27,977 bases of DNA from IMG/VR virus record IMGVR_UViG_3300030380_005213, positions 1 through 27,977 of that record; one strand, written 5' to 3'. Positions 2,258-26,198 of the stretch are shown here, in pieces (the stretch's first letter is position 1; each line of letters opens with the position of its first letter). The notes beneath the pieces are model-generated. The model did not search any database. It worked only from the letters and a program-made list of their open reading frames with translations, and was not told the origin of the DNA. This DNA comes from a virus. The position numbers and the translations under genes were made by a program.

Positions 2258-3739
2258 TTATTGATATACTGCATCTCTTTGAAGCTGCAGATCTAAAGAG
2301 CTTGGACCTTTCCTTGGCTGGGGTTTAACACCAGCTGGGGGAGGTGGAGCTTGATTAGTACTATTATCAACATTATTAACAGTAACACTTTCACCTTTAC
2401 TACCACCTTTCTTTTCATCTAATTTACGCTGAGCTTCTTTAACATCTTCAGCTGTAACCTTACGAGTAATCACTTCACCTGTATCAGTTACATCAACTGG
2501 AATTGTTGAAATTTCTCCTGAAGCAATACCTTTCAATCTTTTTTCTTCGCGTGCTGCTTCTGCTTCTGGTGAATCAAATATTTCATCATATGCATCATTT
2601 GGTGACATACCATCTTTAAGTAGTGGACTAGGTCTAGTGCCACGTCTATCCATTTTACGTATTAATACTTTTAATTTAGTTGGATTGTTTTTAGCTAATT
2701 CTTCAACTACCTCTTTATTAACATATCCATTTTTAACTAAATCTGGATCTATACCTTCCATAGCATCAGGACCAGCTCCAAAGAAACCTGCTATAGCTTT
2801 ACTTGCTGTGCCTTTGTCAAGAAGTCCAAGTGTCAAACCAGAAAGAAGTGAACCAGCAGCTGATGATGCTTTTTCACCTGTAGTTGGATCTCTACCTTCT
2901 ATTCCTAAGTTTTCTGCTGTAGCTTCATCACCATAGCCTTGAACTGCATCTCCAACAGCCATTCCAGCACCAAGAATAGCTCCAGCAGGTCCTAAAAATC
3001 TAGCAGCTTTTAATGCACCTTTACCAAATTTTGCTAATTTACTTGGTCCTTTATTTTTATCTGCTATATCTTGTGCAAGGTTTAATTGTTTATTACTTCT
3101 AGTTTGATCTGGAAGATCTGGAACCTTTGTACCTTTAGTTGTAGGCTTTGTTTGTGGTCCTTTAGTCTGTGGTCCTTTAGGTTTACCTTTAGGTTTACCT
3201 TTATTTTTACCTTTATTTCTACCAGGAAGACCAGCTTCTATAACTGGTATGGGTTTAATATTTGTAACTGTTACTTTTCTTGCAAGTCCACCTGGGCCAG
3301 TTGTTGGTTTAGTTAAAGTTGATGGTGTAGAAGGTCCTTTAAGCATATTTGCTATTTTACCTAACCCCATTTTGGAGAGTGCACCACTTAATCCTTTTAT
3401 TAACAATTTTGGAAGTTTATTTAACCCAGTAATAGCAGCAACTATTCCAGCTAGACCAAGTGCAGCACCTAAACCTTTTTTTAAGAATTCAAATATTTTT
3501 TTACCAAATGATTTTTTTTCTTCACCTACTACTTTTTCTTCTATCCTTCTAATACTATCTTGTATTGTTTGAACAAGTAAAAATTGTTGATTTTGTTTCT
3601 TTTCAATTTTAGCTAATATTTTTACTTCAGGATTAGTCGCAAATGCGCCTTTGAATTTATCAACGACAGCTCCTCTGGATTCCTTACCAGGAACCATTTT
3701 ACCCAATATGTTTTTAAGAGAATCTTTAAATTTATCCAT
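2258..3739 (-). CDS. Tape-measure/hub-like structural protein (gp29-like candidate)
   Basis: This 493-aa product has a helical, lysine-rich N-terminus (about 1-90), two Gly/Ala-rich hydrophobic segments (GAALGLAGIVAAITGL near 91-106 and GPAGAILGAGMAVGDAV near 250-266), a low-complexity basic linker of GKPK and GPQTK repeats (about 174-203), and a C-terminal part with a PPPPAG stretch. Long helical plus hydrophobic segments are usual for phage tape-measure or hub proteins. It directly follows gp26 and gp51, as the T4 hub genes 27-28-29 do. T4 gp29 is about 590 aa. I do not see decisive sequence identity, so gp29 is inferred from context. Its ATG overlaps the gp51 stop by 8 bp (ATGGATAA), suggesting coupled translation. 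Confidence 0.5.
   Translation of the reverse strand: MDKFKDSLKNILGKMVPGKESRGAVVDKFKGAFATNPEVKILAKIEKKQNQQFLLVQTIQDSIRRIEEKVVGEEKKSFGKKIFEFLKKGLGAALGLAGIVAAITGLNKLPKLLIKGLSGALSKMGLGKIANMLKGPSTPSTLTKPTTGPGGLARKVTVTNIKPIPVIEAGLPGRNKGKNKGKPKGKPKGPQTKGPQTKPTTKGTKVPDLPDQTRSNKQLNLAQDIADKNKGPSKLAKFGKGALKAARFLGPAGAILGAGMAVGDAVQGYGDEATAENLGIEGRDPTTGEKASSAAGSLLSGLTLGLLDKGTASKAIAGFFGAGPDAMEGIDPDLVKNGYVNKEVVEELAKNNPTKLKVLIRKMDRRGTRPSPLLKDGMSPNDAYDEIFDSPEAEAAREEKRLKGIASGEISTIPVDVTDTGEVITRKVTAEDVKEAQRKLDEKKGGSKGESVTVNNVDNSTNQAPPPPAGVKPQPRKGPSSLDLQLQRDAVYQ
3154..3225 (-). repeat. Tandem low-complexity repeats encoding a basic Gly-Pro-Lys linker
   Basis: GTGGTCCTTTAG occurs at 3154-3165 and 3169-3180, a 15-bp period encoding GPQTK twice. 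It is followed by 12-bp-period copies of GGTTTACCTTTA-like sequence encoding GKPK and GKNK. This forms the basic flexible linker in the middle of the tape-measure-like protein. Such repeats can change copy number by slippage. Confidence 0.8.
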
Positions 3740-6428: not shown

Positions 6429-7676
6429 ATGTCATATGGTACAACCATGGGTGGCATTAATTTAGACAGTAGTAGTTCAAGCTATTACAAGAGTGCACCT
6501 TCAGCTAAATTACAAGAAGATGTTACTAGGTTAAACGTACAACCTGATACAGCTCCAAAAGGTGAAGTTCAAAAATACAATGTTACAGATTTTGCATATC
6601 CTGAAGGTATAAGCAGCGATTTAGATAAACAACATTATATACAATTTTATATTAATGTAAGAGGTAAATCTAAGTTTAATGAAGGTGAAGCAAAAGGAAG
6701 AGAACAGATTAAAAATAATTTAATGGCTGATGTTGTAGTTGGATCTGGAGAAAACAGAATTGATCCTAATAGAAGTGCTCAAAGAGTTAATGACCTTACA
6801 AGTTTTGTTAAAGGCAATGGTGGATCAAAACTTGGTGAAATTCTTGGAATAGGTGATGGAAAACAAGTAAAACAAACAACACCATCTTCAGAATCATCAG
6901 ATTATTCTACTAATGCTGGAAGTCCTGGAATTATTGATGCAGCTAAAAATACAGTTCAAAAAGGAGTAAATACTGCATTAGAAGGTCTTGCAACATTAAA
7001 ACCAGATGTTCCACGAAGATTAAGAGATGTTATTACATTACACATACAAGATAGACCAGCAGTTAATTATGGTGTATCTTATCAAGAAACTTCATTAGGT
7101 ATGGCAGGTGGTGGTTTATTAGGAGGAGGCCAAGGAACCAGTGATTCGATAGGTATGAATCAAGAATCAGTTAAAGAAGCTACTGCAGCTATGGCTACTC
7201 AAGTTGTTGGAGGACTAAGTTCAATTTTAGGTGCTTTAGGAGGTACTAGGCCTGGTGATATTTTAGTAAATGCTTCTAAACAAATTACTAATCCATTTAG
7301 AGAACAATTTTTTGAAAGAGTAGATTTTAGAACATTTAATTTTAGACATACATTCATGCCTAAAAGTGCAGAGGAAGCACAAAAAGTTAGAGATATAATT
7401 AAGATGTTTAAATTTCATATGCATCCAGAATTAGTAGGTGGTCTTGGTTTAATGTTTTTATATCCTTCAGAATTTGAAATAAAATATATGTATAGAGGTG
7501 AAGAAAATACATATTTTAATAAAATATCAACTTGTGTACTGGAAGATATGAATGTTGAATATGGTGGTGATATTTTTGCTTCATTTGAAGATGGTCAACC
7601 GGTAGAAGTAAACATGAGCCTAAGATTTAAAGAACTCGAAGTACTCACTAAAGAAAGAATTGCAGAAGGATTCTAA
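6429..7676 (+). CDS. 48: gp48 baseplate tail tube cap
   Basis: This is a 415-aa protein whose C-terminal half is strongly gp48-like: REQFFERVDFRTFNFRHTFM, KFHMHPELVGGLGLMFLYPS and NKISTCVLEDM (about residues 290-375). The N-terminal part has YPEGISSDLDKQHYIQFYIN. gp48 caps the hub and, with gp54, starts tube polymerisation. T4 gp48 is about 364 aa; the extra length is in a Gly/Ser-rich middle (about residues 80-260) including GMAGGGLLGGGQG. Its ribosome binding site is GAGGA at 6417-6421. It is the first gene of the long rightward baseplate operon and fuses to gp53 by TAATG. Confidence 0.88.
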   Translation: MSYGTTMGGINLDSSSSSYYKSAPSAKLQEDVTRLNVQPDTAPKGEVQKYNVTDFAYPEGISSDLDKQHYIQFYINVRGKSKFNEGEAKGREQIKNNLMADVVVGSGENRIDPNRSAQRVNDLTSFVKGNGGSKLGEILGIGDGKQVKQTTPSSESSDYSTNAGSPGIIDAAKNTVQKGVNTALEGLATLKPDVPRRLRDVITLHIQDRPAVNYGVSYQETSLGMAGGGLLGGGQGTSDSIGMNQESVKEATAAMATQVVGGLSSILGALGGTRPGDILVNASKQITNPFREQFFERVDFRTFNFRHTFMPKSAEEAQKVRDIIKMFKFHMHPELVGGLGLMFLYPSEFEIKYMYRGEENTYFNKISTCVLEDMNVEYGGDIFASFEDGQPVEVNMSLRFKELEVLTKERIAEGF

Positions 7677-8398
7677 TGACATATCAATACTTTCAAAAAT
7701 ATCCGTTAGCTACATTTACATTAGATGATTACCAATCTATGCAAATTATGCCAGATTTATCTACTAGAAGTAAATTCTTAGCTAACGTAGTTACTAATGC
7801 ATCTAACTATGATGAGTATGATATTGTAAGTGGTGAAACACCTGAAATCACAGCAGATAAGTTTTATGGTGATTCAGGATTACACTGGATTATATTACAA
7901 TCTAATGGTATACTTGACCCAAGGTTTGGATGGCCATTAGATCAATTCTTTTTAAAACAATTTACAAAAGAGAAATATGGAAATATAACTTCTACTCATC
8001 ATTATGAGGATTCGACTGGTAATATAACAACTAATGCAAATATTGAAATAACTTTATCAGATACTATTGATACATTAAATTTAAGTAATGGTTCAGTTTT
8101 AACTAATGTAACAGGTAGTGGTGTTGGAGTTATAACAGATATTAATATTACCGGTAATTCTACATTTAAACTTAGAGTACCTCAAGGAGGTTTTAATAAT
8201 GGAGATACAATTGCATTAGCTTCTAATACTTCTATAACTTCTAATATCACTGGTACTGATAATATAACAAATGGTACTGCTATAACTAATTTAATTCATG
8301 AAGATAGAGAAAATGATGCAAAAAGAAAGATTAAAATAATTAAAAGTGATTTTGTACCATCAATAATTAGTCAATTTGAAAACTTAATGAAAACATGA
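7676..8398 (+). CDS. 53: gp53 baseplate wedge subunit
   Basis: The 240-aa product shows the LysM-like gp53 pattern: a start MTYQYFQKYPL, then ADKFYGDSGLHWIILQSNGI and LDPRFGWPL (about 60-88), and the conserved C-terminus KRKIKIIKSDFVPSIISQFE. gp53 joins wedges to the hub. Compared with T4 gp53 (196 aa), a Thr/Asn-rich beta-type insert lies between the two conserved parts (about residues 118-206). It overlaps the following hub gene by ATGA. AGAAGGA lies upstream in the end of gp48. Confidence 0.9.
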   Translation: MTYQYFQKYPLATFTLDDYQSMQIMPDLSTRSKFLANVVTNASNYDEYDIVSGETPEITADKFYGDSGLHWIILQSNGILDPRFGWPLDQFFLKQFTKEKYGNITSTHHYEDSTGNITTNANIEITLSDTIDTLNLSNGSVLTNVTGSGVGVITDINITGNSTFKLRVPQGGFNNGDTIALASNTSITSNITGTDNITNGTAITNLIHEDRENDAKRKIKIIKSDFVPSIISQFENLMKT

Positions 8399-9738
8399 CA
8401 CAACCTTCTATACCTTTTCAAACTGCAGGTACGGTTGATATACATGAGCTTGTGATATTTACAGGTTCTGGTAAATTTTTAGACATAAAAGATTACATGT
8501 CTGAACTTAACATTTACGAAGATATATTTTCTCCAACAATGTCAGGTAACTTTTTATTTGTTGATTCTAGAAACTTAATAAAGGAATTACCTATTGTCGG
8601 TGAGGAATATCTTTATGCTAAAATTGAAACACCAAGTAGTGGTCAATTAATAGAAAAAATATTTAGAATTTATTCTATAACAGATAGAGAATTTGCTAAT
8701 GACCAAGGAACTCAAATATATAGTTTAAATTTTATTTCTTTAGAAGCAATAGCTAATACATTTAAACCAATTTTTAAAACCTTTAAAGGTCAAATTAGTG
8801 CATTAGTTAGAGATATATTTAATGATTATATACAAACTAAAAGAACAGCTATAAAAAAAGATAATGCTTATACTTTCAATAATGATGTATCTAAATTACA
8901 AATTTTAACTTCAACTTCTAATTCAGTCAAATTTGTTAGTCCAGGATGGACTCCATTCAAATGTATAAATTGGTGTGCTTCTAAATCTATACCGCTTGAA
9001 GGCAAAGCATGTAATTTTTTATTTTTTGAGACTAATAAAGCATTTGTTTTTGGTAGTATAGAAACAATATTTAAATTCAATAAAGATAGTAATAATGGTT
9101 TGAGTATAGGTACTTACAAATATCAAACTAATCAACTAAAAAAGAACGAAAATCCAGTATCTAAAATGTTTAATGTTGAAGAGTTTCAACTTATAAAAAC
9201 TGTTGATCATTTAGCTAATTATAATAGTGGATATTTGGCTAATAGATTAATAACATTAGATATATTAAATAAAAAGTATGCAGCTCACGATTATGATGCT
9301 ATTGAAAGTTTTGAGGATTATTCACACAGTGAAGCTAAACCAAAACCTTTTTTTAATGTTGATTCTACAAGATCACCTTTATCTGATATAAAATTTGCGC
9401 CAGTCCATCCAGGTTTATTTCCTGATATGAAAGATAATGTTAATGAAAAAATGTTTGAGATACATGGTAACAGAAAGTCTAATTTAATGGAACTTAACAA
9501 TTTTAAATTAAATATGATAATTCCTGGAAGAACTGATGTTGAAGTGGGTAGAACATTAGATTTTATTTTTCCAGACGTTTCACCTAAATCTGAAAAAGAT
9601 AAAAACAAAGATACTGGAGATAAATTTTATACAGGTAGTTACTTAATATCAGCTATTAGACATAAAATAACTTTACAGTCTCATCATATGGCAGTAGAAT
9701 TAATTAAAGATTCAATGAATGGAGCAAGAGATAATTAA
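8395..9738 (+). CDS. 27: Baseplate hub protein, gp27-like
   Basis: This 447-aa protein sits directly before the gp5-like spike gene, in the position of the hub component gp27. Its N-terminal part has the usual hub pattern: VDIHELVIFTGSGKFLDIKD, LNIYEDIFSPTMSGNFLFVD and LIKELPIVGEEYL, followed by the strand pairs of a tube-like domain. The C-terminal third has LNMIIPGRTDVEVGRTLDFI, typical of the second tube-like domain. T4 gp27 is 391 aa and forms the trimeric torus holding the spike. No ribosome binding site is visible at the ATGA overlap with gp53, so translation is probably coupled. Identity to T4 is weak; the call rests on architecture and synteny. Confidence 0.72.
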   Translation: MTQPSIPFQTAGTVDIHELVIFTGSGKFLDIKDYMSELNIYEDIFSPTMSGNFLFVDSRNLIKELPIVGEEYLYAKIETPSSGQLIEKIFRIYSITDREFANDQGTQIYSLNFISLEAIANTFKPIFKTFKGQISALVRDIFNDYIQTKRTAIKKDNAYTFNNDVSKLQILTSTSNSVKFVSPGWTPFKCINWCASKSIPLEGKACNFLFFETNKAFVFGSIETIFKFNKDSNNGLSIGTYKYQTNQLKKNENPVSKMFNVEEFQLIKTVDHLANYNSGYLANRLITLDILNKKYAAHDYDAIESFEDYSHSEAKPKPFFNVDSTRSPLSDIKFAPVHPGLFPDMKDNVNEKMFEIHGNRKSNLMELNNFKLNMIIPGRTDVEVGRTLDFIFPDVSPKSEKDKNKDTGDKFYTGSYLISAIRHKITLQSHHMAVELIKDSMNGARDN

Positions 9739-11078
9739 TGAATATATTTAATAAAGACGGATTTATTTGGTTTATAGGTGTAGTGGAATCAAGAACTGAT
9801 GATCCACTTAAAGCTGGTAGATGTAGAGTAAGAATATATGGTTATCATTCAGAAGATAAAAATGAACAACCTACTGAAGATCTGCCTTTTGCAACACCAA
9901 TACAACCTATAACTTCTGCTGCTATTGCTGGAAAAGGAACAACTCCTATTGGACCAGCTGAAGGAACATGGGTTGTTGGTTTTTTCTTAGACGGCAAAAA
10001 TATGCAACAACCAGCTTTTTTTGGAACTATAGCTGGAATACCAGGTAATGAAAGTACATTTGAAGAACCACCTAAAGATCCACAGACAGATAATGACCAA
10101 TCTAAAAACAAAACTGATGCGGATATGAAAAATCAATCAGGTGAAAAAATTACAGATGGTAATAATAATCCAGTTAAGTCTGGTGTTCCACCTGTTAAAG
10201 ATTTTAAAATAGGTGATGTTGCTAAAAACAATGCTTCCACAATATTACCATTTGGAGTTGGTGCTGGTAATAAAAGTGTTGGAACAATTAATGATTATAA
10301 GACAAGCGAAGAAAGATTTGGAGCTAGGTACGGTAAGTATGAATTAGCTTCATTTTTACCTAAACACACACCAGGTGGTAAAGCAAGACCATCTTCTAAA
10401 GGTTCACCGTTAAGTACATTTGTAAAAGATTCTAAATTTAGTCCACAATTTGTAGGACTAGAACCAGGTACAGATGACTTTGATAATAAATGGTCAGAGA
10501 TATCAAGTTCTGATAGTTTTCTTTTTGAAAAAGATCAAGATGACTTTATGAAGAAAAAATACTTTGATTCATTTGTATCTAATTTAAGAAGAAAAGGTGT
10601 TGATATTAATAAGTTTGGTCCATCTGTAAAAGAACTTGGGTTTACTACTGCTTTACAATCAGGTCCATCTGGAGGCACTGAAATATTTAATAGAGCATTG
10701 AGAGGTAAATCGTCTATAAATGATAATGATATTTTAGATTCAGTTGGTGAATTTAAGAAAGCAGCTGCTGATGAACTTTTTCCAGGTTTAGATATTAGTA
10801 AATTAGATTCATTAAAATCAGAGTTAACTTCTCAAAAAAGTAGTCTTGATGGTTTACTTCCTAAAGTGCCATCATTAGGATCTTTTCCAGATTTGCCAAG
10901 TCTTCCAGGCGTACCAGATTTACCAGGATTACCTTCTTTAAGTGGTATAGAGGCCTTTCAAGGAACTAAAAATGAAGATTTGCATTACTTTGGGGATGAT
11001 CCAATAATTTATGATAGAATAAATGCAGAAAGAATAAAAAGAGGTTTATCACCTTTAGCTAATCAAAGGCCAACATAA
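9738..11078 (+). CDS. 5: Spike base: gp5 OB-fold domain with a VgrG3-like lysozyme domain
   Basis: Residues about 8-104 form a gp5/VgrG OB domain: IWFIGVVESRTDDPLKAGRC, VRIYGYHS, and GTWVVGFFLDGKNMQQPAFF. A polar linker follows. Residues about 168-345 resemble the peptidoglycan hydrolase domain at the C-terminus of VgrG3-type T6SS spikes: RYGKYELASF, GLEPGTDDFDNKWSEISSSD, QDDFMKKKYFD and TTALQSGPSGG. This is in the place where T4 gp5 carries a T4-type lysozyme. Then comes a Leu-Pro repeat (about 374-402) and a short tail ending LANQRPT. The beta-helix of T4 gp5 is not here but in the next gene. TAATG junctions at both ends. The OB call is firm; the hydrolase family is from remembered pattern, and its catalytic Glu could not be placed. 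Confidence 0.78.
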   Translation: MNIFNKDGFIWFIGVVESRTDDPLKAGRCRVRIYGYHSEDKNEQPTEDLPFATPIQPITSAAIAGKGTTPIGPAEGTWVVGFFLDGKNMQQPAFFGTIAGIPGNESTFEEPPKDPQTDNDQSKNKTDADMKNQSGEKITDGNNNPVKSGVPPVKDFKIGDVAKNNASTILPFGVGAGNKSVGTINDYKTSEERFGARYGKYELASFLPKHTPGGKARPSSKGSPLSTFVKDSKFSPQFVGLEPGTDDFDNKWSEISSSDSFLFEKDQDDFMKKKYFDSFVSNLRRKGVDINKFGPSVKELGFTTALQSGPSGGTEIFNRALRGKSSINDNDILDSVGEFKKAAADELFPGLDISKLDSLKSELTSQKSSLDGLLPKVPSLGSFPDLPSLPGVPDLPGLPSLSGIEAFQGTKNEDLHYFGDDPIIYDRINAERIKRGLSPLANQRPT

Positions 11079-13378
11079 TGAGTTCATTTAAAGTTAACCA
11101 ATTCAAAGACATAGTTGTAGCTGAAGCTCAGGCTAGACCTGAATTTACAAGGTTACCTCCTATAGCTAGAAAATTTATGAATGAAGCTTTGGAAGAAACA
11201 GCAAGTGAACTTTCAGCTGGGATAGTTAATGATATTGATTTATCTGCTAATAAAGAATTGACAGACATACCTAAGAACCTTGTTGGACCAACTAATCCAG
11301 TTGATTTAGTAAGTAGTAATTTAGATGTAACTAGTTTAACTAACAATTTAGATAGTAAAATAACAGGTGCCCTTACAGATGCATTGACAGATAGACTTAC
11401 TACCAGTGTTGTTTCAAAATTTAATAGTAAACTTCCTCCTATTCTCAGGTCTAAAATTAGTACGTCAGCAATTCAAAATGCATTGAGTGGAGGTTTATCT
11501 TCTGGTTTAAACAAAGGTATAAAACATGAATTGAATTTATTTTCTGGTGAAGCATTATCTGGTAGAATACCTCAATTACCTTCAGTACCTAATATAGGTG
11601 GCATATATGATAAGTTAAGTGCTAAGGAAGCATTTGCAGATGTCAATAAAAAATTTGATACAGCAGCTGCCACATCAGCTATACAAGATGCTGCAAATTT
11701 TAATGTTCAAAACGAAGAAAATACAAAAAAGCAAATAGTAACAAATACTGGTTTTGTAAGTCCTACAGCTACATTTCCAACTCGAGATTATTCAGCAAGA
11801 ACAGAAACTAATAAACTTGCCACTGGTGATGTAAATGGAACAATCACTTTTGAGAAAACTGAAGACAGAATATTAGGTTGCAAATTACCAAACAATGAAA
11901 GTTTTGACCAACCTCTCAATCCATACAATGCAAGATATCCATTTAATAAAGTTATAGAAACAGAATCTGGTCATATAATAGAAATGGATGATACACCAGG
12001 TGCTGAAAGATTACACATCTATCATACCAATGGAACATTTATTGAATTAGATCAATCAGGTTCTATTGTAGAAAGAACTAAAGGTAGTCAATATAGATTT
12101 GTAGATAAAAATGATCACTTATCTGTGATGGGTGAAGGAAGAGTATCTATTGGAGGTTCATTAAAGGTATATTGTTCTGGTAATGTAGATTTAGAAGTAG
12201 AAGGTGATACTAATTTGAGATGTTTTAATGATGTTACTATGGAAGCATCAGGAACTTTAAATCTATCTGCAACAGAAGAGATAAATTTAAACAGCGCTAA
12301 TATCAATATTGAATCATCTAACTTTGTTAATTTAAAAACAGAAGGAAATGCATTTATAACAGCTAAAGATAGCATTCATAATAAATGTAATAGTTCAATG
12401 TTTTTGCATACATTGAAAGACATGCATATTAATTCAGATGAAAACTTTAATTTATTAGCAGCTAAAGATATGAGTTTGATAGCTACCAGTAAAATGGTAT
12501 CGTCAGCAGATTCAATTCATGAGCAAGCTACAACTTATAATGAAAAAGCCACAACTATTAATATGAATAATCCTTCATATAGTGTTGCAGACAATCCTCC
12601 AAACATTGCTTCTGTAGCAACTTATGCTAATGATGCTAATATTGGAACTATAGGTGATAGAAACAGTGTAATAATAGAAACAATAGATGATCCAGAATAT
12701 TCTAATTATTTAGATAATGTTGGTTATGAAACAGAAGATACAGAATTAGATGAAGAAGCAGATCAGTTTGAAAAGTCACAAATTATATCAGGAGTAGCAT
12801 CACCAGGACGTTCTGATCCAGTTGAAGTAAGAAGATCAACTGCTTCTCCTACTATATCAACTATTGTTCAACCTGATATAGGTCTTAAATCTGCACAATT
12901 TGTGCCAGGTAATATGAGAATATCACCAAACTTTACTCTTGAAAAATTATCATCTAAGGCTTACTTTCCTCATGATATACCTCGTCAAGGTCAAGTTGGA
13001 CTTTCTTATGGGGAAATAGTATTTAATTTACAAGCTATGGCTTTAAATGTTTGTGAACCAGTTAAAGAATTATTTCCTAATATGTTTATTACTTCAGGAT
13101 TTAGGAAAGTTACAGCTGATGGAAGTAAAACATCTGATCACTTAAAAGGTCAAGCTATTGACATGCAATTTAAAAATACAAGAAAAAAAGAATATTTTGA
13201 TATAGCAGAGAAAATAGCAAACAATATAAATTTTGATAAAGTACTTTTAGAATATAAAGATACTGGATCTGGGTTACCTTGGATACATATTTCGTTCAAA
13301 GTAGATCAACCAAGAAAACTTATGTTTACATATTTTAATCATAGAAAAACTCATAATCAATTTGTGGATCTTGCATAA
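11078..13378 (+). CDS. Spike beta-helix protein with C-terminal M15 peptidase domain
   Basis: This is a 766-aa protein in three parts. Residues about 1-200 are helical and polar. Residues about 260-500 look like the gp5/VgrG beta-helix: GHIIEMDDTPGAERLHIYHT, GTFIELDQSGSI and then many short alternating strands (EINLNSANINIESS). Residues about 605-745 match the M15/D-Ala-D-Ala peptidase fold: MRISPNFTLEKLSS, ITSGFRKV, the zinc motif HLKGQAID (H688, D695, form HxxGxAxD) and PWIHISF (H737). It probably forms the trimeric needle below the OB protein and cuts peptide cross-links in the cell wall during puncture. It lies between the OB protein and PAAR with TAATG at both ends. Confidence 0.82.
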   Translation: MSSFKVNQFKDIVVAEAQARPEFTRLPPIARKFMNEALEETASELSAGIVNDIDLSANKELTDIPKNLVGPTNPVDLVSSNLDVTSLTNNLDSKITGALTDALTDRLTTSVVSKFNSKLPPILRSKISTSAIQNALSGGLSSGLNKGIKHELNLFSGEALSGRIPQLPSVPNIGGIYDKLSAKEAFADVNKKFDTAAATSAIQDAANFNVQNEENTKKQIVTNTGFVSPTATFPTRDYSARTETNKLATGDVNGTITFEKTEDRILGCKLPNNESFDQPLNPYNARYPFNKVIETESGHIIEMDDTPGAERLHIYHTNGTFIELDQSGSIVERTKGSQYRFVDKNDHLSVMGEGRVSIGGSLKVYCSGNVDLEVEGDTNLRCFNDVTMEASGTLNLSATEEINLNSANINIESSNFVNLKTEGNAFITAKDSIHNKCNSSMFLHTLKDMHINSDENFNLLAAKDMSLIATSKMVSSADSIHEQATTYNEKATTINMNNPSYSVADNPPNIASVATYANDANIGTIGDRNSVIIETIDDPEYSNYLDNVGYETEDTELDEEADQFEKSQIISGVASPGRSDPVEVRRSTASPTISTIVQPDIGLKSAQFVPGNMRISPNFTLEKLSSKAYFPHDIPRQGQVGLSYGEIVFNLQAMALNVCEPVKELFPNMFITSGFRKVTADGSKTSDHLKGQAIDMQFKNTRKKEYFDIAEKIANNINFDKVLLEYKDTGSGLPWIHISFKVDQPRKLMFTYFNHRKTHNQFVDLA

Positions 13379-13644
13379 TGCCAGGTGTATCAAGAGTTGG
13401 TGTAGATACAGCAGCAGGAACTATTACAGGACCTGGTGCATCAACTGTTTTTGTAAATGGTTCAAAAGTATCATTAATAGGTGATTCAGTTGCAGCTCAT
13501 AGTCCTGGAGGAATACATAATTCAGCTACTATGGTTGAAGGATCCTCAGATGTATTAGCAGAAGGTACAGGAGTAGTTAGAGCAGGAGATGCAGCAAGTT
13601 GTGGTCATACTGCTACAGGTTCTTCAGATACGTTTGCTAATTGA
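13378..13644 (+). CDS. 5.4: PAAR-repeat spike tip protein (gp5.4-like)
   Basis: The 88-aa protein has the PAAR pattern of short Gly-rich strands: VSRVGVDTAAGTITGPGAST, VFVNGSKVSLIGDSVAAHSP, and ending ASCGHTATGSSDTFAN. H41, H47, C75 and H77 fit the usual three-His plus one-Cys metal site at the sharp tip. In T4, gp5.4 caps the gp5 needle. Immediate position after the needle gene supports this. It is followed by a 13-bp gap carrying the gp25 ribosome binding site. Confidence 0.93.
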   Translation: MPGVSRVGVDTAAGTITGPGASTVFVNGSKVSLIGDSVAAHSPGGIHNSATMVEGSSDVLAEGTGVVRAGDAASCGHTATGSSDTFAN

Positions 13645-13657
13645 GGATAAATAAAGC

Positions 13658-14059
13658 ATGGCTATAGTAAATAGAAAAGCAAGAAAATTTATAGATTTTG
13701 ATTTAAATTTTCAATCAGATCTTCAAACTAAAGATTTAATCGAATCTGAAAATGAAAATGCAGTTAAGCAATCTATAAAAAATTTAATATTAACAAAAAA
13801 TTATGAAAGAAAATTTCATCCAGAAATAGGTTGTCAAGTTTATTCTATGATGTTTGAAAATTTTACACCAGCTACTAAAAATATAATGGAAAGAACTATA
13901 CAAGATGCGATTAATAATTTTGAACCAAGAGCAACATTAATAAGAGTAGACATAGTAGATAACCAAGATAGTAATGAAGTTGATGTAACTGTTGAATTTA
14001 AAATGGCTAATATTCCAAATCCATTAGTTATTACACAATCACTAACGAGAGCAAGATAA
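13658..14059 (+). CDS. 25: gp25 baseplate wedge protein (lysozyme-fold-like family)
   Basis: The 133-aa product has the T4 gp25 length (132) and its motifs: NLILTKNYERKFHPEIGCQV (about residues 43-62), the RxF/HP core, and AINNFEPRATLIRVDI. gp25 is the conserved core wedge and sheath-initiating protein found in all contractile injection systems. The ribosome binding site is GAGGA (13643-13647) in the short gap. It fuses to gp6 by TAATG, the usual gp25-gp6 pair. Confidence 0.95.
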   Translation: MAIVNRKARKFIDFDLNFQSDLQTKDLIESENENAVKQSIKNLILTKNYERKFHPEIGCQVYSMMFENFTPATKNIMERTIQDAINNFEPRATLIRVDIVDNQDSNEVDVTVEFKMANIPNPLVITQSLTRAR

Positions 14060-15918
14060 TGTCACAGATAAGTAAATTAGATGTATCTGAATTAGATTTT
14101 GATGCAATCAAAGAAAATTTAAAAACGTTTTTAAATGCTCAAGATACATTTACAGATTATGATTTTGATGGGTCAGCATTATCAGTATTAATTGATTTGC
14201 TTGCTTATAATACACATTATAATGCATATATTGGTAATATGCTGTTGAATGAAATGTTTTTAGATTCAGCAGTAAAAAGGTCATCTGCAGTTTCTATTGC
14301 AAAACATTTAGGATTCACACCAACTTCAGTAAGAAGCGCAAGAGCTAATATTAATCTAACTGTAGTAGATCCTACAGATTCACCTCCAACTGTAACTATT
14401 GAACCGTTTACGACATTTAACACTACTATTAGAAATAATACATTTACATTCACTAATTTAGAAGCAGCAACTATTGTTCCTTCAGGTAATAATTATTCAT
14501 TAAGTGGATTACAAATAGTAGAAGGTACACCAAGAACATTATCTTATGTTTCATTAGGAACAGGTCCTGATGAAAAGTTTGTAATACCTGACAGAGATAT
14601 AGATACATCTACTTTAAAAATAAAAGTTCAAGGTTCTACTTCAAATACATTTGTAAACACTTATACACAAACAACCGATATATCAAATGTTAATCCTTCT
14701 TCAAAAGTATTTTTTGTTGAAATGAATCCTTTGGAACAATACGAAGTATTTTTTGGTGATGGTACTATTGGTAGTAAATTAATTCAAGGTAATTTAGTAA
14801 TTATAGAATATCTCTTATCGACTGGAACTGGAGCTAATGCTTCGGATAAAGCTGACATTAGTTTTTCAGCAGGCCAGGCTATAGGAGGTACTACAAATAT
14901 TACTGTTGCAACTGCTTCTAATCCAAGTGCAGCAAGAGATGCTGATACTATAACTGATATAAAATTTAAAGCACCAAGAGTCAATGCAGCTAGAAATAGA
15001 GCTGTAACTGCTAATGATTATAAAGGTTTAATAGAAGCTAATTTCACAGATGCAGAATCAGTTGTTGTTTATGGTGGTGAGGATAATGTACCACCTAAGT
15101 TTGGAAAAGTAATGATATCGTTAAAACCTTTTGATGGTTTTAATATATCACAAACAACTAAAGATTCTATTGTAACTTCTATCTTAAAAGATAAAAAAGT
15201 AATGTCAATACAGCCTGAATTTATTGACCCAGATTTCTTTTTCTTAAATTTAATAGTAAATGTTGTATATAATATTAACAATACAACAAGATCTATTAAT
15301 ACTATTAAAACAACTGTTGAGAATACAATTGAAGGTTACTTTACTTCTGATTTACAAAAATTTGATAAAGACTTTAATAAATCGTTATTAATGAAAAAAA
15401 TAATAGAATCCGACAGTTCTATAGTTTCTGTAATTATTATTCCTAAGTTACAAAAAAGAACTACTGTTACTTTAAATACAATCAATACTTTTTCTGGAGA
15501 TGATAGTTTTGATTTTGATAATTCTATTAAACCTGGATCAGTTAAATCAAGTAGATTCTTTCAAAATATTCAAAATGTATCAACACTAGTTAACTTTACT
15601 GATGTTCCCGATACTTCACCAGCTGAAGATGCTGGATCTGGTACATTAGTTACTAGGAATGCACTTACTAACCAAATATTAAATGCAAAAGTTGGAAACG
15701 TAAATTATTTAACAGGTGAAGTTGTTATAGATTCGTTTGTACCAACTGCATTGCCAAATAACATTTTAGATTTTAGAGTAACTACAAATATACAAGAATC
15801 AGCACAAAATATACAAGCTAAAAGAAATCAAATAATCGTTAGAGATAAAACAATACTCAATGCTGCTGCTGGAAGAGATGCTGGATTAACAGTTAATGTT
15901 TCGAGTGTTGTTGAGTAA
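14059..15918 (+). CDS. 6: gp6 baseplate wedge protein (J-like)
   Basis: The 619-aa protein is close to T4 gp6 (660 aa). Landmarks are YDFDGSALSVLIDLLAYNTH (about residues 37-56), NAYIGNMLLNEMFLDSAVKR, HLGFTPTSVRSARA, FEMN/GDGTIGS in the middle (VFFGDGTIGSKL), and ARNRAVTANDYKGLIE (about 312-327). gp6 makes the wedge dimer core that links gp25, gp53 and gp7 in the inner baseplate. It follows gp25 by TAATG. Confidence 0.95.
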   Translation: MSQISKLDVSELDFDAIKENLKTFLNAQDTFTDYDFDGSALSVLIDLLAYNTHYNAYIGNMLLNEMFLDSAVKRSSAVSIAKHLGFTPTSVRSARANINLTVVDPTDSPPTVTIEPFTTFNTTIRNNTFTFTNLEAATIVPSGNNYSLSGLQIVEGTPRTLSYVSLGTGPDEKFVIPDRDIDTSTLKIKVQGSTSNTFVNTYTQTTDISNVNPSSKVFFVEMNPLEQYEVFFGDGTIGSKLIQGNLVIIEYLLSTGTGANASDKADISFSAGQAIGGTTNITVATASNPSAARDADTITDIKFKAPRVNAARNRAVTANDYKGLIEANFTDAESVVVYGGEDNVPPKFGKVMISLKPFDGFNISQTTKDSIVTSILKDKKVMSIQPEFIDPDFFFLNLIVNVVYNINNTTRSINTIKTTVENTIEGYFTSDLQKFDKDFNKSLLMKKIIESDSSIVSVIIIPKLQKRTTVTLNTINTFSGDDSFDFDNSIKPGSVKSSRFFQNIQNVSTLVNFTDVPDTSPAEDAGSGTLVTRNALTNQILNAKVGNVNYLTGEVVIDSFVPTALPNNILDFRVTTNIQESAQNIQAKRNQIIVRDKTILNAAAGRDAGLTVNVSSVVE

Positions 15919-19980: not shown

Positions 19981-22900
19981 ATGCCTACCGTATTTCCTAC
20001 ATCACCACATTTTGACGATTTTGACGAATCTAAAGAGTTCGTAAGAATCTTATTTAGACCTGGACGTGCAGTACAGGCTAGAGAGATAACTCAACTTCAA
20101 ACCATTATTCAAGCACAAATTGAAAGATTTGGAAAAGGTATTTACAAAGATGGTTCTTTTGTATCACCTCCTGGTGAAACATTTGATCCATTTTTATCAT
20201 TTGTAAAATTAAAAGATGCATTTTCAGGTACTGATGCAGATGATGTTGTCGGAGGTTTAGTTGGACAAACTATTGTTGGTCAAACATCTCTTGTAAGAGC
20301 AACAGTAATCAATTCTTCTATATCAACTACAGCAGGTGATCCACCTACTTTATTTGTAAAATATACAGATGGTGGTACTAATAGACAAGAAGCATTTACT
20401 AATAATGAACAAATTAAAAACGAAGCAGGAACTGTTACAGTACAGGCTTTAGCTTCAGCAGCTACAGGTTTTGGAACATCTTTTTCTATTGGTCAAAGTA
20501 CAATATTTGCAAAAGGAAACTTCTTATTTGTTCCACAGCAAACACATATTGTTGAAAAGTATGCTAATGTACAAAATAAAATTATAGGTTTAAGTGTATC
20601 AGAGTCGGTTGTAGATTCTGATACTGATGAAACTTTACTTGATCCAGCTACTGGAACATTCAACTTTTTTGCGCCAGGTGCTGATAGATACAAAGCTAAT
20701 TTAGTGTTAGCAAGTAGAGAATTAGAATTTGTAGCAAACACTGATCCAAACTTTATTGAAGTTATAAGAGTTGAAGAAGGTCAAGTAATTTCTAAGAGTA
20801 TAGATCCAAGACTAAGTGTACTTGGTGATACTTTAGCAAGAAGAACTTTTGAAGAGTCTGGTAATTATATTGTTGAACCATTCAATTTAGAGTTAAGAGA
20901 ACATTTAAGAAATACACCGGTTGGTTCTAATACAGCAGCTAATATAGTTGCAACTATTAATACTGGTGAATTTTTAAAAGCTAATGGAGGTGATAATTCT
21001 TTATTTGTATCAGTTATCACACCTGGTCAAGCATATGTTAAAGGTTATGAAGTAGATGATGTACCAACAAGAAAATTAGCTGTATCTAAAGCAAGAGATT
21101 TTTCAAATGTAACTTCAAGTGTTATAGCAAGCAAACTTTCAAGTTTTGTTAACATAACATCTGCTAATTCAATACCTGATTTTGCAACAGTTGAAACATT
21201 ATCATTAAGAGATAGGTATAAATCAAGTAATGCAGGTCAAAATGGAGCAATAGTTGGTACTGCTAAGGCTAGAGGAATTGAATATCTTACAGGAAATGTA
21301 ACATTTGCAAGAGGTGGTACAGTAAGTACTAGAACAGGAAGAACTGCAACATTTAAACTTCATTTGTTTGATATACAAATGGATTCAGGAAAAACATTTG
21401 AAAGAGATGTAAAACACTTAACAGGTGATGATTTTGAATTTGCAGCTAATATTGTTCCAACAGAAACTAATATAACAGGTGCTGTAACATTTAATGCTGT
21501 TTCAACAACTGTTAGAGGAAGTGGTACTAAATTTGGTACTGATCTTAAAGTTGGAGATGTGATATCTGTATCTAATGCTTCTTCTACAGTTAGATTAGAA
21601 GTAGCTACTATTGTTGATGATGTTGAATTAACAGTAACAGCAGCTCCATTAATGAATTTACAACTTAATGGTTTCTTTACATATGCATCTGCTGCACTTA
21701 ATACAGCTAATATTGGTGATTCAGATAAAGATATTTTAATATCTAAGATACCTCGTGATGTAATAAAAGCTGTCGACCCAGATAATATTAATACAACTTA
21801 TACTGTTAAAAGACAAGAAACAAGAACACTATCTAGCGGAGCTGTAACTATTACAGCTGGTACTAATGAAACATTTTCACCATTTAACGCTAGTAATTAT
21901 CAAGCTATTATAGTTTCTGGAGCAAGAAAAGGTGAATTCATTGAAATAGACAGTAGTGATGTTACAATTAATGGAACTTCAACTGAGATAACATTTGACT
22001 TTAGTGGTACACCAGGTGAAAACTTAAATAACGAAGCTGTCGAATTTATTCTTACAGTTAATAAAAGAACTTCTGCTGCACTCAGAAAAACAAAAACATT
22101 AGTAGAAAATGCTACATTAACTCTTACAGAGAATGTTAAAGCACAAGCAGCTATTATTTCATTAGGTAAAGCTGATGGATTTAAATTAAAATCAGTTCAT
22201 ATGGCTAATGTAGATACTCAGTTTGGAATGGCATATACTACTGATTTACAGTCAAACATTACTTCAAGATATAGTTTTGATACAGGTCAAAAAGCTACAT
22301 TTTATGATTTAGCAAAAGTAAAATTAAAACCTGGTGCTGCTAAGCCAGCAAGACCAATTAGAATTACATTTGATCACTTTACACATGGTGCTGGAGATTT
22401 CTTTTCAGTTGGTTCATATCCTGATTATGAAGATATACCAGAAGTTACCTTTAATGGTCAATTATTTAAACTTAGAGATTGTTTAGACTTTAGACCAAGA
22501 ATAAATGACGCTGGTACAGGATTTAGTGGTACTGGAGCTTCTACTACAGAATTTTTAGATCAAGATATTAACTTTGTAACTAACTTCCAGTTCTTTTTAC
22601 CTAAGATTAATTCTATAGGTTTAGATGAAAATGGAAATTATTTTGTTGTAAATGGAAAGAGTGAACTTAATCCAAGAGAACCTAACTTTCCATCTGAACT
22701 ATTAAAGTTATTTGTTTTACAACAAAAACCATATGTATTTGATATTAAACAAGACATTGAAGTTAAGAGAGTAGAAAACAAACGATTTACCATGAAAGAC
22801 ATTGGTAAGTTAGAAAATAGAGTTAAGACTTTAGAATTTTATACATCACTTAATTTATTAGAAAGAGATGCACAACAAGCTCAAATACAAGACGAGTTAG

Positions 22901-24348
22901 GATTTGATAGATTTAAAAATGGTTTTGTAGTCGATTCATTTACAGGTCACGGTGTTGGAGATTCAGTAGATAATCCTGACTACGCTGTATCAATGAACTT
23001 TACAAAGAAAGAAGCATCACCATTAATTAAAAGTAGATTTATAAATTTAGAAGAAAAATCTTCTACAGATGCACAAAGAACTAGCAATAATTATGTTATT
23101 ACTGGAGCTTTAGCTTCTTTGCCTTACACACATGAATTATTAATACAAAATCCATTTTCAAGTAAAACTCAAAATTTAAATCCATTCAACTTAAATCAGT
23201 TCCAAGGATTAATGAGAATATCACCTCCTGGTGATTTGTGGTTTGACGATAGAAGAGTACCAGACGTAGCAGTTGATAGAACTGGTACATTTGATTCGTT
23301 ATTATCACAATCGCTTATTAAAAGAGATGGTAGAAATGTTTTTGGTTCTTTAAATGATATAGAACAATTAAGAAATGGTATTCCACAAAACACAGATGAA
23401 CTTCCAGATACTGAAAAAGGATTAGCAGATCTTCTTGGTAGTTTATCACCTGCAACAAGTACTGTACAATTACAAGGTAATGATGTAGTTAAAAATATCA
23501 CAGTTATACCAAAAATGAGAGATGTAAATATAGGGTTTAGAGCTGAAGGAATGAGGCCTAACACAACAATGCATGCTTTCTTTGATGATACAAATGTAAC
23601 AGCTTTTTGTAATCAAAAGACTGAATTAGTCAGAGCAAGACAACAGGCTTTACAAGCTAATGTTGCTGCAGGACAACCAGAACCCATAATTAAGTTAGAT
23701 CAATTAAGACTTAGTAATGTTCTTGCTAATGTATCAGTTGGTTTATCTACTGATGCTAATGGATTAATTGAAGGTAACTTCCAATATTTGTCTGAATCAT
23801 TAAATATATCTACAGGTAAAAAAATATTTAGATTAACAAGTTCAGCATCTAATGATAGAGAAGCGGAAGTATCTTTTGCTGAACAGGTTTTTGTTAGTGA
23901 TGGAGTTATAAGAGAGATATCTAATGAATTTCTTAGACCACCTCCACCTCCACCACAACCAGAACCACAACCTCGTGTTGAGCCTCAGCCTGACCCAAAT
24001 CCTTCTGTTATGGATAAAATATTTCTTACGGTTAGAGGTGCAGCTATTATGACACCATCTGTAAGAGCGTCTTATGAGGCAATATGTCCTGGTATAACTA
24101 CTTCTACAAATCCAACTGCTTTGAATCAAGATAAGTTGAGACAAGTTACGCAACAAGCAGCAGCTGGTTTTGCTGTAAACGGTAGAGATGGTAAAGAAAT
24201 GGGTGGTAACGGAAGTATACTTCAAACAGGAACAGTAGGTCCAGCAGCTGTTACAGGAGCTAGAGTAAGAAGAGGTGAAATTACAGTTGAAGAAGCAGCT
24301 TTGCAACATGCTGATAGTATACAAAAAGCACTAGGAGTTGAATTTTAA
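19981..24348 (+). CDS. DUF4815-like baseplate/fibre-connector protein, 1455 aa
   Basis: The largest gene of the window. The N-terminus DFDESKEFVRILFRPGRAVQ (about residues 14-33) with AREITQLQTIIQAQIERFGK is the signature I associate with the DUF4815 family of tail proteins. Further conserved-looking blocks are EGQVISKSIDPRLSVLGDT, GQAYVKGYEVDDVPTRKL, RDCLDFRPRIND and KLENRVKTLEFYTSLNLLE. A proline-rich hinge (about residues 1319-1343, RPPPPPPQPEPQP) leads to a separate C-terminal domain of about 110 residues. It lies between gp8 and a gp10-like protein, so it probably forms part of the outer baseplate that holds fibres. Exact role unproven. It joins the next gene by TAATG, with AGGAG upstream. 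Confidence 0.8.
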   Translation: MPTVFPTSPHFDDFDESKEFVRILFRPGRAVQAREITQLQTIIQAQIERFGKGIYKDGSFVSPPGETFDPFLSFVKLKDAFSGTDADDVVGGLVGQTIVGQTSLVRATVINSSISTTAGDPPTLFVKYTDGGTNRQEAFTNNEQIKNEAGTVTVQALASAATGFGTSFSIGQSTIFAKGNFLFVPQQTHIVEKYANVQNKIIGLSVSESVVDSDTDETLLDPATGTFNFFAPGADRYKANLVLASRELEFVANTDPNFIEVIRVEEGQVISKSIDPRLSVLGDTLARRTFEESGNYIVEPFNLELREHLRNTPVGSNTAANIVATINTGEFLKANGGDNSLFVSVITPGQAYVKGYEVDDVPTRKLAVSKARDFSNVTSSVIASKLSSFVNITSANSIPDFATVETLSLRDRYKSSNAGQNGAIVGTAKARGIEYLTGNVTFARGGTVSTRTGRTATFKLHLFDIQMDSGKTFERDVKHLTGDDFEFAANIVPTETNITGAVTFNAVSTTVRGSGTKFGTDLKVGDVISVSNASSTVRLEVATIVDDVELTVTAAPLMNLQLNGFFTYASAALNTANIGDSDKDILISKIPRDVIKAVDPDNINTTYTVKRQETRTLSSGAVTITAGTNETFSPFNASNYQAIIVSGARKGEFIEIDSSDVTINGTSTEITFDFSGTPGENLNNEAVEFILTVNKRTSAALRKTKTLVENATLTLTENVKAQAAIISLGKADGFKLKSVHMANVDTQFGMAYTTDLQSNITSRYSFDTGQKATFYDLAKVKLKPGAAKPARPIRITFDHFTHGAGDFFSVGSYPDYEDIPEVTFNGQLFKLRDCLDFRPRINDAGTGFSGTGASTTEFLDQDINFVTNFQFFLPKINSIGLDENGNYFVVNGKSELNPREPNFPSELLKLFVLQQKPYVFDIKQDIEVKRVENKRFTMKDIGKLENRVKTLEFYTSLNLLERDAQQAQIQDELGFDRFKNGFVVDSFTGHGVGDSVDNPDYAVSMNFTKKEASPLIKSRFINLEEKSSTDAQRTSNNYVITGALASLPYTHELLIQNPFSSKTQNLNPFNLNQFQGLMRISPPGDLWFDDRRVPDVAVDRTGTFDSLLSQSLIKRDGRNVFGSLNDIEQLRNGIPQNTDELPDTEKGLADLLGSLSPATSTVQLQGNDVVKNITVIPKMRDVNIGFRAEGMRPNTTMHAFFDDTNVTAFCNQKTELVRARQQALQANVAAGQPEPIIKLDQLRLSNVLANVSVGLSTDANGLIEGNFQYLSESLNISTGKKIFRLTSSASNDREAEVSFAEQVFVSDGVIREISNEFLRPPPPPPQPEPQPRVEPQPDPNPSVMDKIFLTVRGAAIMTPSVRASYEAICPGITTSTNPTALNQDKLRQVTQQAAAGFAVNGRDGKEMGGNGSILQTGTVGPAAVTGARVRRGEITVEEAALQHADSIQKALGVEF

Positions 24349-26198
24349 TGGCAATTAATAGAATAGATCCAGTTGCTCAATCGTTTTTTATAGAAGAGCC
24401 TACATACATTACAAAGGTTGATTTATTTTTTCAATCAAAGGATGAGAATATTCCTGTATTTGTACAGATAAGAAAAAATAAAAATAATAGGCCAGGTGAT
24501 ACAGCAATACCATTTAGTGCAAAAATGATTTCAGCTGCTAATGTTAATATATCTTCAAATGCAAATGTAGCAACTACAGTGACTTTTGATTCACCTGTGT
24601 TTTGTGATATAGGTGAATATTCATTAACACTTGGTTCAGATTCAAGAGCATATAATGCATATGTTGCTGAATTAAATCAAACAGATACTTTATCTGGTAG
24701 AAGAATATCTGAACAGCCAATGATTGGTTCATTGTTTTTATCTGAAAATTTAAAATTATTCCAACCAGATTTGTTTGAAGATCTTAAAGTAAATATTTAC
24801 AGAGCAAAATTTAATACTGCATCTACAGGTTCAGTTGAAATGGATTTAGTAGGTACAGGAGTTAATCATACTGATATATTAAATGTGCTTGAAGTAGATC
24901 CATTAGAAGTTTATCCAGAAATTAAAACCATGAAAGTTTATCATTTCAATCATGGTTATGTAAATGATTCTTTTGTTAGATTTAGAAATGTAGCAAATGC
25001 AAATGCATTAGGTACAGTTGGTAATGTAGTCGGTTTGCCTGGTACTTCTATTCAAGATGTAGACTTTCAAATCGCTAATGTAAGATTAGACTCTTATACA
25101 GTTACACTTCCTATTGTTCCAAATGTAAGAGAAAGAACTAGATTTGGTGGAGAGTTAGTTAACGTAGAAGAAAATGTTGGATATTCAAGTATTACACCAC
25201 AACTGTCTATATTTAAACCTGCAAACACTGTAGTTACAAGTAAAGCAATAACTACTGTTCCAGGTGCTAGTTATACAATTGGAGCTTTTGAAGAAGTACA
25301 AAATGCTGTACAAAATGATTTTGATTCTGCAAGAGTAATAGCGAGTGGCAAAAATCAATCTCACAAAACAGCTAATGCAACTACTTTTAGATATAAAGTT
25401 GAAATGTCTTCAGTAAATGATAGAGTTTCACCTGTAATAGATTTAGAACAGTTGGGAATAAACTTTAAGAGAAACTTGGCAAATGAACCTTCATATGCTA
25501 ATTTATTAAAACATGAGTTTGATGTAACTTCAAATACGATTACTCCTCATAGAGCTAATATAATAAAATTATCTAATAACATTGGTGTTATTACTTTAGC
25601 AAATATAATGGATCAGCAAAATGCAAATGCATTAGTAAATGGTACATTCTTAAATGTCACTTCAAACCATACTACTGTTGGAGCAGCTGTTTATAATGAA
25701 GGAATATATAGAGTATTGGATGTAATAGATGGTGGAGCAAACATTAAAGTTGCTAAGTTGACAGGTAATGCTGTTATAACTACTGATGAAGGTAATGCTA
25801 ATGTTTACTCTATAGTAAGTTCACCTAACTTTATTGCAGAAGAAGCAGCTGTAGGTGGTTCATCTTTCTCGAAATATATTTCAAGACAAGTTGATTTTTT
25901 CAATCCAAGTACTGGAGCTAAATTCTTTTTAGATGTTTCAAAACCAGCTTCAGCTAATGTACAATTTTATGTTAAGACTAAATTAGCTGGTGATACAAAA
26001 AATATGGATGAAGTAGAATATACAAAAGTAGATGATGTTGATATTACAACATCTCTTGGTGGAGAATTTGTACAGTATGAACAAGAAGTTTTAAATCTAC
26101 CAGAATTTAATTCATTAATATTCAAAATAGTTTTAAATTCTACTGATGAATCACAAATACCTAAAATTAAAAATTTGAGAGTTATTGCATTACAATGA
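24348..26198 (+). CDS. gp10-like baseplate/short fibre connector protein
   Basis: The 616-aa protein starts with INRIDPVAQSFFIEEPTYIT and KVDLFFQSKDENIPVFVQIR (about residues 3-41), a block common at the end of DUF4815-type proteins or in the adjacent gene in tailed phages. GEYSLTLGSDSRAYNAYVAE and a long beta-rich body follow, ending LIFKIVLNSTDESQIPKIKN. Together with the gene before it, it probably makes the outer wedge part that connects to tail fibres, like T4 gp10. T4 gp10 is about 602 aa, a similar length, but direct homology is not visible to me. It overlaps the next gene by ATGATAA. Confidence 0.65.
   Translation: MAINRIDPVAQSFFIEEPTYITKVDLFFQSKDENIPVFVQIRKNKNNRPGDTAIPFSAKMISAANVNISSNANVATTVTFDSPVFCDIGEYSLTLGSDSRAYNAYVAELNQTDTLSGRRISEQPMIGSLFLSENLKLFQPDLFEDLKVNIYRAKFNTASTGSVEMDLVGTGVNHTDILNVLEVDPLEVYPEIKTMKVYHFNHGYVNDSFVRFRNVANANALGTVGNVVGLPGTSIQDVDFQIANVRLDSYTVTLPIVPNVRERTRFGGELVNVEENVGYSSITPQLSIFKPANTVVTSKAITTVPGASYTIGAFEEVQNAVQNDFDSARVIASGKNQSHKTANATTFRYKVEMSSVNDRVSPVIDLEQLGINFKRNLANEPSYANLLKHEFDVTSNTITPHRANIIKLSNNIGVITLANIMDQQNANALVNGTFLNVTSNHTTVGAAVYNEGIYRVLDVIDGGANIKVAKLTGNAVITTDEGNANVYSIVSSPNFIAEEAAVGGSSFSKYISRQVDFFNPSTGAKFFLDVSKPASANVQFYVKTKLAGDTKNMDEVEYTKVDDVDITTSLGGEFVQYEQEVLNLPEFNSLIFKIVLNSTDESQIPKIKNLRVIALQ

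Follow-up and report, generated by a model that had tools for sequence, protein, structure and literature searches.

The baseplate cluster examined here probably encodes a T4-type puncturing device in which the adaptor and the needle are separate, translationally coupled chains, the needle being tipped with an M15 peptidase and the accompanying muramidase domain having become degenerate. The window analysed is the whole stretch of IMG/VR record IMGVR_UViG_3300030380_005213 (27,977 nt), which derives from a T4-like myovirus and in which a T4-like gene set was detected (gp33, gp59, gp32, gp2, gp4, gp48, gp53, gp25 and gp6). The genes of interest all lie on the plus strand, and run from a gp53-like baseplate wedge gene (7676–8398; Pfam Phage_gp53, E=2e-7; phrog_232, E=1e-36), through a hub gene remotely related to T4 gp27 (8395–9738; phrog_350, E=1e-86), a gene for OB and VgrG3-like domains (9738–11078, 446 aa), a needle and M15 gene (11078–13378, 766 aa) and a PAAR tip gene (13378–13644, 88 aa; PAAR_motif, E=1e-9), to gp25-like (13658–14059; GPW_gp25, E=5e-16) and gp6-like (14059–15918; phrog_219, E=1e-147) wedge genes. 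The four spike-region ORFs, from hub to PAAR, are hence located between gp53 (7676) and gp25 (13658), with ATGA or TAATG overlaps at their junctions. Elsewhere in the window, the gp53-like protein (7676–8398) possesses an additional stretch at approximately residues 112–200 with weak Ig-like matches, and a 493-aa protein encoded on the minus strand (2258–3739), which partially matches phrog_26249, adjoins a block of genes on that strand encoding baseplate hub, tail tube, gp2 and gp4 proteins.

The first of the two central proteins begins with an OB domain (9738–10157, residues 1–140 of 446), which is recognised by Gp5_OB (PF06714) at E=2.5e-16, and the OB region of T4 gp5 (residues 7–148) aligns with residues 8–147 of the window protein at E=3e-19. 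This is followed by a VgrG3-like muramidase-fold domain (10215–10859, residues 160–374), for which the T6SS_VgrG3-like_C profile (PF21277) returns a match of E=3e-25 that begins at profile position 24. The domain is similarly related to the C-terminal muramidase of VgrG3 (VgrG3C, 4noo), both by sequence (1e-13) and in an AlphaFold model of the lysozyme-like part (E=1.9e-10, TM 0.80), with GH46 chitosanases as the next best structures; in this model pLDDT is mostly 70–92 for the lysozyme-like part and poor for the OB part. The remainder of the protein is a C-terminal tail (10860–11075, residues 375–446), ending YDRINAERIKRGLSPLANQRPT.

The second protein opens with a domain of predicted helices (11078–11692, residues 1–205) without a Pfam match, and continues with a linker motif, GFxDPTxxYP...TNxLAxGD (11750–11830, residues 225–251), and a gp5C-type needle (11885–12487, residues 270–470), predicted by homology to form a triple-stranded beta-helix. 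Residues 270–410 align with T4 gp5 368–513 at E~4e-17, and the needle profile search also retrieves the needle constructs 4jiv and 4ku0; the structural model of this protein is of low confidence (mean pLDDT 59). At its C-terminus lies an M15 peptidase domain (12875–13375, residues 600–766), with H688, D695 and H737 as ligands, plus E725. The Pfam M15 score of the window protein (20.2 bits) is under the 23.2-bit cut-off, which is cleared by a sister protein, and the PHROG endolysin family phrog_894 matches the domain at E=2e-16. Across M15 sequences the metal ligands of the HxxxxxxD...H pattern are invariant (86/86), with the Glu present in 82/86. Weak fold matches to hedgehog N-domains, which share the M15 fold, were also returned.

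With regard to the genes flanking this pair, profile–profile comparison (hhalign) of the hub with T4-type gp27 is collinear over the full length (probability 82%, E=1e-5). This match appeared only with the wider profiles, there being no signal against the single T4 gp27 and no match amongst PDB sequences. The PAAR gene is assigned to phrog_281, the PHROG that also contains T4 gp5.4, such that both a gp27-type hub gene and a PAAR gene are present in the baseplate cluster of the window. Much of what a reading made from the sequence alone had proposed for this locus is borne out by these searches, namely an OB and lysozyme-like gene, a needle carrying a different enzyme at its end, PAAR as a third gene and a hub gene upstream at 8395; the Gp5_OB, VgrG3-like and PAAR profiles that it named were all found, with M15 alone below its Pfam threshold. 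The same sequence-only reading had counted the separate PAAR gene as part of a dissection, a view that does not survive comparison, as PAAR is also separate from gp5 in T4 (5.4), RB49 and Aeh1 and is therefore normal rather than unusual. Its likening of the locus to a dissected VgrG-PAAR holds as an analogy alone: the closest relatives of the OB domain and needle are phage gp5 proteins, the hub and OB domain occupy separate genes, unlike the gp27–gp5 fusion of VgrG, and no T6SS gene neighbourhood is found in the window, where the neighbours are the phage genes gp53, gp25, gp6, gp32 and gp59. VgrG3C itself (4noo), whilst sharing fold and sequence family with the lysozyme-like domain of the window, resides on a T6SS spike.

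Division of the spike between two genes is a consistent property of its relatives. Four scans of viral contigs yielded at least 85 loci in which OB-lysozyme and needle are encoded as two genes, and the junction between them is split in 89/89 measurable related loci, with spacings of −4 (30 loci), −1 (38 loci) or, for the remainder, 0 to +296 nt. A sequencing error at 11078, which could have disguised a single fused gene, is excluded by these related environmental junctions. The TAATG overlap seen there by the sequence-only reading does exist, but is in no way special, as a 1-nt overlap of this type occurs at eight late-gene junctions of the window. It is the commonest late-gene spacing of the window, and was rejected as a mark of recent fission. 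Because ten late-gene junctions in the window have overlaps of −1 or −4, that at 11078 is best read as ordinary translational coupling. A further apparent split exists in the window, where the ORFs at 19981–24348 and 24348–26198, joined by TAATG at 24348, match phrog_358 (2056 positions) at 6–1397 and then 1419–1605. In four other loci (L124, L131, L140 and L105) the needle gene is interrupted, likely through sequencing frameshifts.

Three environmental loci, L198, L199 and L201, have the same domain order as the window (OB, VgrG3-like, linker, needle and M15) on one chain. They differ in being a single fused gene, in retaining an intact Glu/Asp motif and in having no helical N-domain; the latter, of approximately 200 aa, is present in the split relatives and absent from the fused ones, and homology to the mid-regions of the fused relatives was rejected for lack of any match. 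In a FastTree phylogeny the split loci with a lysozyme group together (support 0.958), and in IQ-TREE three fused loci fall amongst them (67%), so that the two trees conflict over a single origin of the split; parsimony requires five changes between fused and split states overall. A second group of split loci (L216:2389–8217, L221:2422–7479, L226:4039–8028 and L228:4501–8166) possesses very long needle proteins of 1221–1942 aa, in which some 550–1200 residues without assignment precede the linker and needle. The fused loci favour a joint function of the two products, and one T4-type spike is the likely product of the window genes, as judged from homology and conserved adjacency. The two genes might instead serve two distinct machines, one a plug made of OB-lysozyme and the other a free-standing spike without OB domain, in which the helical N-domain of the needle protein could serve as its own adaptor; this is very improbable, given that adjacency and overlap are conserved amongst relatives and that L198, L199 and L201 carry the domains on one chain.

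Comparison with T4 gp5 indicates that the arrangement is not merely a T4 spike cut in two. T4 shares with the window a gp27-like hub, an OB domain, a muramidase-fold domain, a gp5C-type needle, a separate PAAR gene and a two-chain final state; its gp5 is, however, a single gene whose product is cleaved post-translationally, and it has neither the M15 domain nor the helical N-domain of the window needle. The position of the linker provides a further distinction. The motif GFxDPxxxYP...TNxLAxG lies between OB and needle in gp5 proteins without lysozyme (L040, L060, L098 and Vibrio phage D479), and precedes the lysozyme in T4, RB49 and Aeh1 at approximately residues 110–139, with match scores of 17.5 (a short match), 23.3 and 24.2 bits, respectively, against a best of 8.3 bits from 2000 shuffles. 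Both the window and its relatives have the motif in the needle protein, downstream of the lysozyme-like domain. As such, the T4 enzyme is situated between linker and needle, where the window has no T4-type lysozyme domain, whereas the VgrG3-like domain is situated between OB and linker. Opposite sides of the linker and different enzyme families together indicate independent insertions of lysozyme, and by these sequence criteria the VgrG3-like muramidase was probably acquired independently of that of T4.

These observations bear on a simpler reading, in which a T4-style gp5 was split at the site where it is cleaved during maturation, a gene boundary taking the place of proteolysis with all else as in T4. 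T4 gp5 is cleaved at Ser351/Ala352, between lysozyme and needle (PMC3004832), and the final complex likewise contains separate gp5* and gp5C chains (PMC3004832; PMC7650644), so that the two-chain end state is alike and the coarse order of OB-lysozyme followed by needle matches. Against this, the linker precedes the lysozyme in T4, RB49 and Aeh1 but follows it in the window, the lysozyme families differ, and the window needle gene carries an added helical domain; the gene break is also out of register with Ser351/Ala352, because the lysozyme lies across the linker from that of T4. Simple fission is therefore rather improbable, and whilst the proposal that the parts of T4 gp5 are spread over two genes stands for their coarse order, it fails as a description of a dissected T4 gp5.

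The VgrG3-like domain of the window has also departed from its own family. In relatives it carries the motif YESGG...GDxGGASYGxYQ, which the family profile aligns to KYESAGRGPG...GDYGGASYG of 4noo and both acids of which are retained in 51/60 distinct homologues. The motif Glu and Asp, 15 residues apart, are what we take to be the reported VgrG3 catalytic pair; their putative roles are assigned from the position of the motif in VgrG3C together with background knowledge. In the window the corresponding region of the catalytic Glu (10218–10292, residues 161–185) contains no Asp or Glu, and Gly175 occupies the Glu position in an ungapped register (17- and 60-homologue alignments), whereas the Glu is present in VgrG3. 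The position of the motif Asp is taken by Glu192, and FGARYGKYE stands in place of GGASYGxYQ. The Glu is similarly absent in sister loci L008, L010, L012 and L106, and the Asp in L013, L015, L148 and L153, in which the Glu column is doubtful owing to an insertion. All motif-broken loci form one subclade (FastTree 1.0, UFBoot 99), which adjoins the motif-intact L107 and L126 (UFBoot 100). Pfam scores agree with this, with motif-intact L091 matching at 1e-55 over profile positions 1–183, compared to 3e-25 from position 24 for the window. A C-terminal extension of 45–90 residues is confined to this subclade, as all 12 long-tailed proteins lie inside it and 76 others have none; since all carriers form one clade, tail and motif loss count as a single evolutionary event.

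Despite this, the domain is evidently maintained. Between the window and L010, dN/dS is 0.10 for the VgrG3-like domain and 0.09 for OB, and this similarity argues that the domain is retained for some function. That function could be muramidase activity through another acidic residue, given that purifying selection equals that on OB and that D186, E191 and E192 are nearby. We consider this unlikely, however, as residues 161–185 are devoid of acids, residues around the motif have changed as well, and E191 is not compensatory, being present in the motif-intact sister L107 (SEDRGGASYG). Instead, the sequence changes point to a non-catalytic domain in the window subclade, presumably kept as a structural or glycan-binding part, and the family label 'tail lysozyme' is probably wrong for the genes of this subclade. 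Neither the loss of the catalytic-motif Glu, nor the helical needle N-domain, nor the fused L198, L199 and L201 had figured in the sequence-only reading.

Several components of this arrangement are known from other phages. Methylophilales phage Melnitz (MZ577098), like the window, has an OB gene, then a needle–M15 gene with a 1-nt overlap, and then a PAAR-like gene; unlike the window, no VgrG3-like domain is detected, there is no helical N-domain, and it is placed elsewhere in the tree. Its OB protein (L001:3428–4465) shows a weak VanY-like match at residues 229–282, and the Melnitz spike may hold two peptidase domains; a term search of the Melnitz paper returned no mention of gp5. Caulobacter phage Cr30 and Pseudomonas phage pf16 possess, as in the window, a gp5 with M15 at the needle C-terminus, encoded in both cases by a single gene, with Phage_lysozyme2 between OB and needle in Cr30 and only approximately 40 residues there in pf16. 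In Aeromonas phage Aeh1 the same order is seen with a fused gp5 (hub, 5, 5.1, PAAR, 25, 6). A two-gene OB/needle–M15 spike and an M15-tipped gp5 are accordingly known already (Melnitz; Cr30 and pf16), and what is new is the VgrG3-like two-gene arrangement, unseen here amongst cultured phages: the split form with this domain was found in environmental contigs only, among the matches listed, no phage record in the collection searched covers at least 80% of the window spike proteins, and no described split gp5 was found in the literature searched.

The M15 domain is itself variable in its placement. In the window, as in Melnitz, Cr30, pf16 and BUCT-ZZ01, it follows the needle at the C-terminus; Vibrio phage 1.244.A (L005) and L219 have it joined to PAAR, and in L225 it constitutes its own gene between needle and PAAR. 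Such exchange amongst genes neighbouring the tip supports a tip position for M15. A downstream 'peptidase' of phiN3 was considered as a further M15 and rejected, having no match.

For the T4-type device with separate adaptor and needle chains, the following sequence of events can be envisaged. In the first protein, the OB domain would act as the adaptor beneath the gp27-like hub, whilst the needle protein would trimerise, with its M15 zinc peptidase at the tip-proximal end and PAAR as the cap. Tail contraction would drive the needle through the outer membrane, whereupon M15, which is presumably the working enzyme of the spike, would cleave the stem peptides of peptidoglycan. The needle would then depart and the tube open; by analogy, it would be free to leave because needle and adaptor lack a covalent join. 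T4 reaches a comparable two-chain state via cleavage of gp5, and there the lysozyme activity of gp5 is lowered about tenfold by gp5C (PMC7650644). In the window subclade, the VgrG3-like domain, having lost its catalytic-motif Glu, would persist as a structural or glycan-binding part. A fuller history is offered tentatively, in which a VgrG3-family muramidase may have been gained at a new position in gp5, the spike split with a helical domain for coupling, and the subclade left with a pseudoenzyme and docking tail, M15 cutting the wall.

Taken in the context of other phages, these data suggest that T4-type spikes carry their enzyme as an exchangeable insert, with inserts so far comprising a T4L-type lysozyme (T4), Phage_lysozyme2 (Cr30), a VgrG3-like domain (window) and perhaps a VanY-like domain (Melnitz). 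It is suggested that these enzymes were inserted on either side of a conserved linker, and that division of the spike into two genes occurred on more than one occasion. The subclade that seems catalysis-free, with fold and tip peptidase kept, provides a natural test of the dependence of the spike on muramidase, and is of relevance to cell-wall penetration by contractile phages and to the annotation of 'tail lysozyme' genes.
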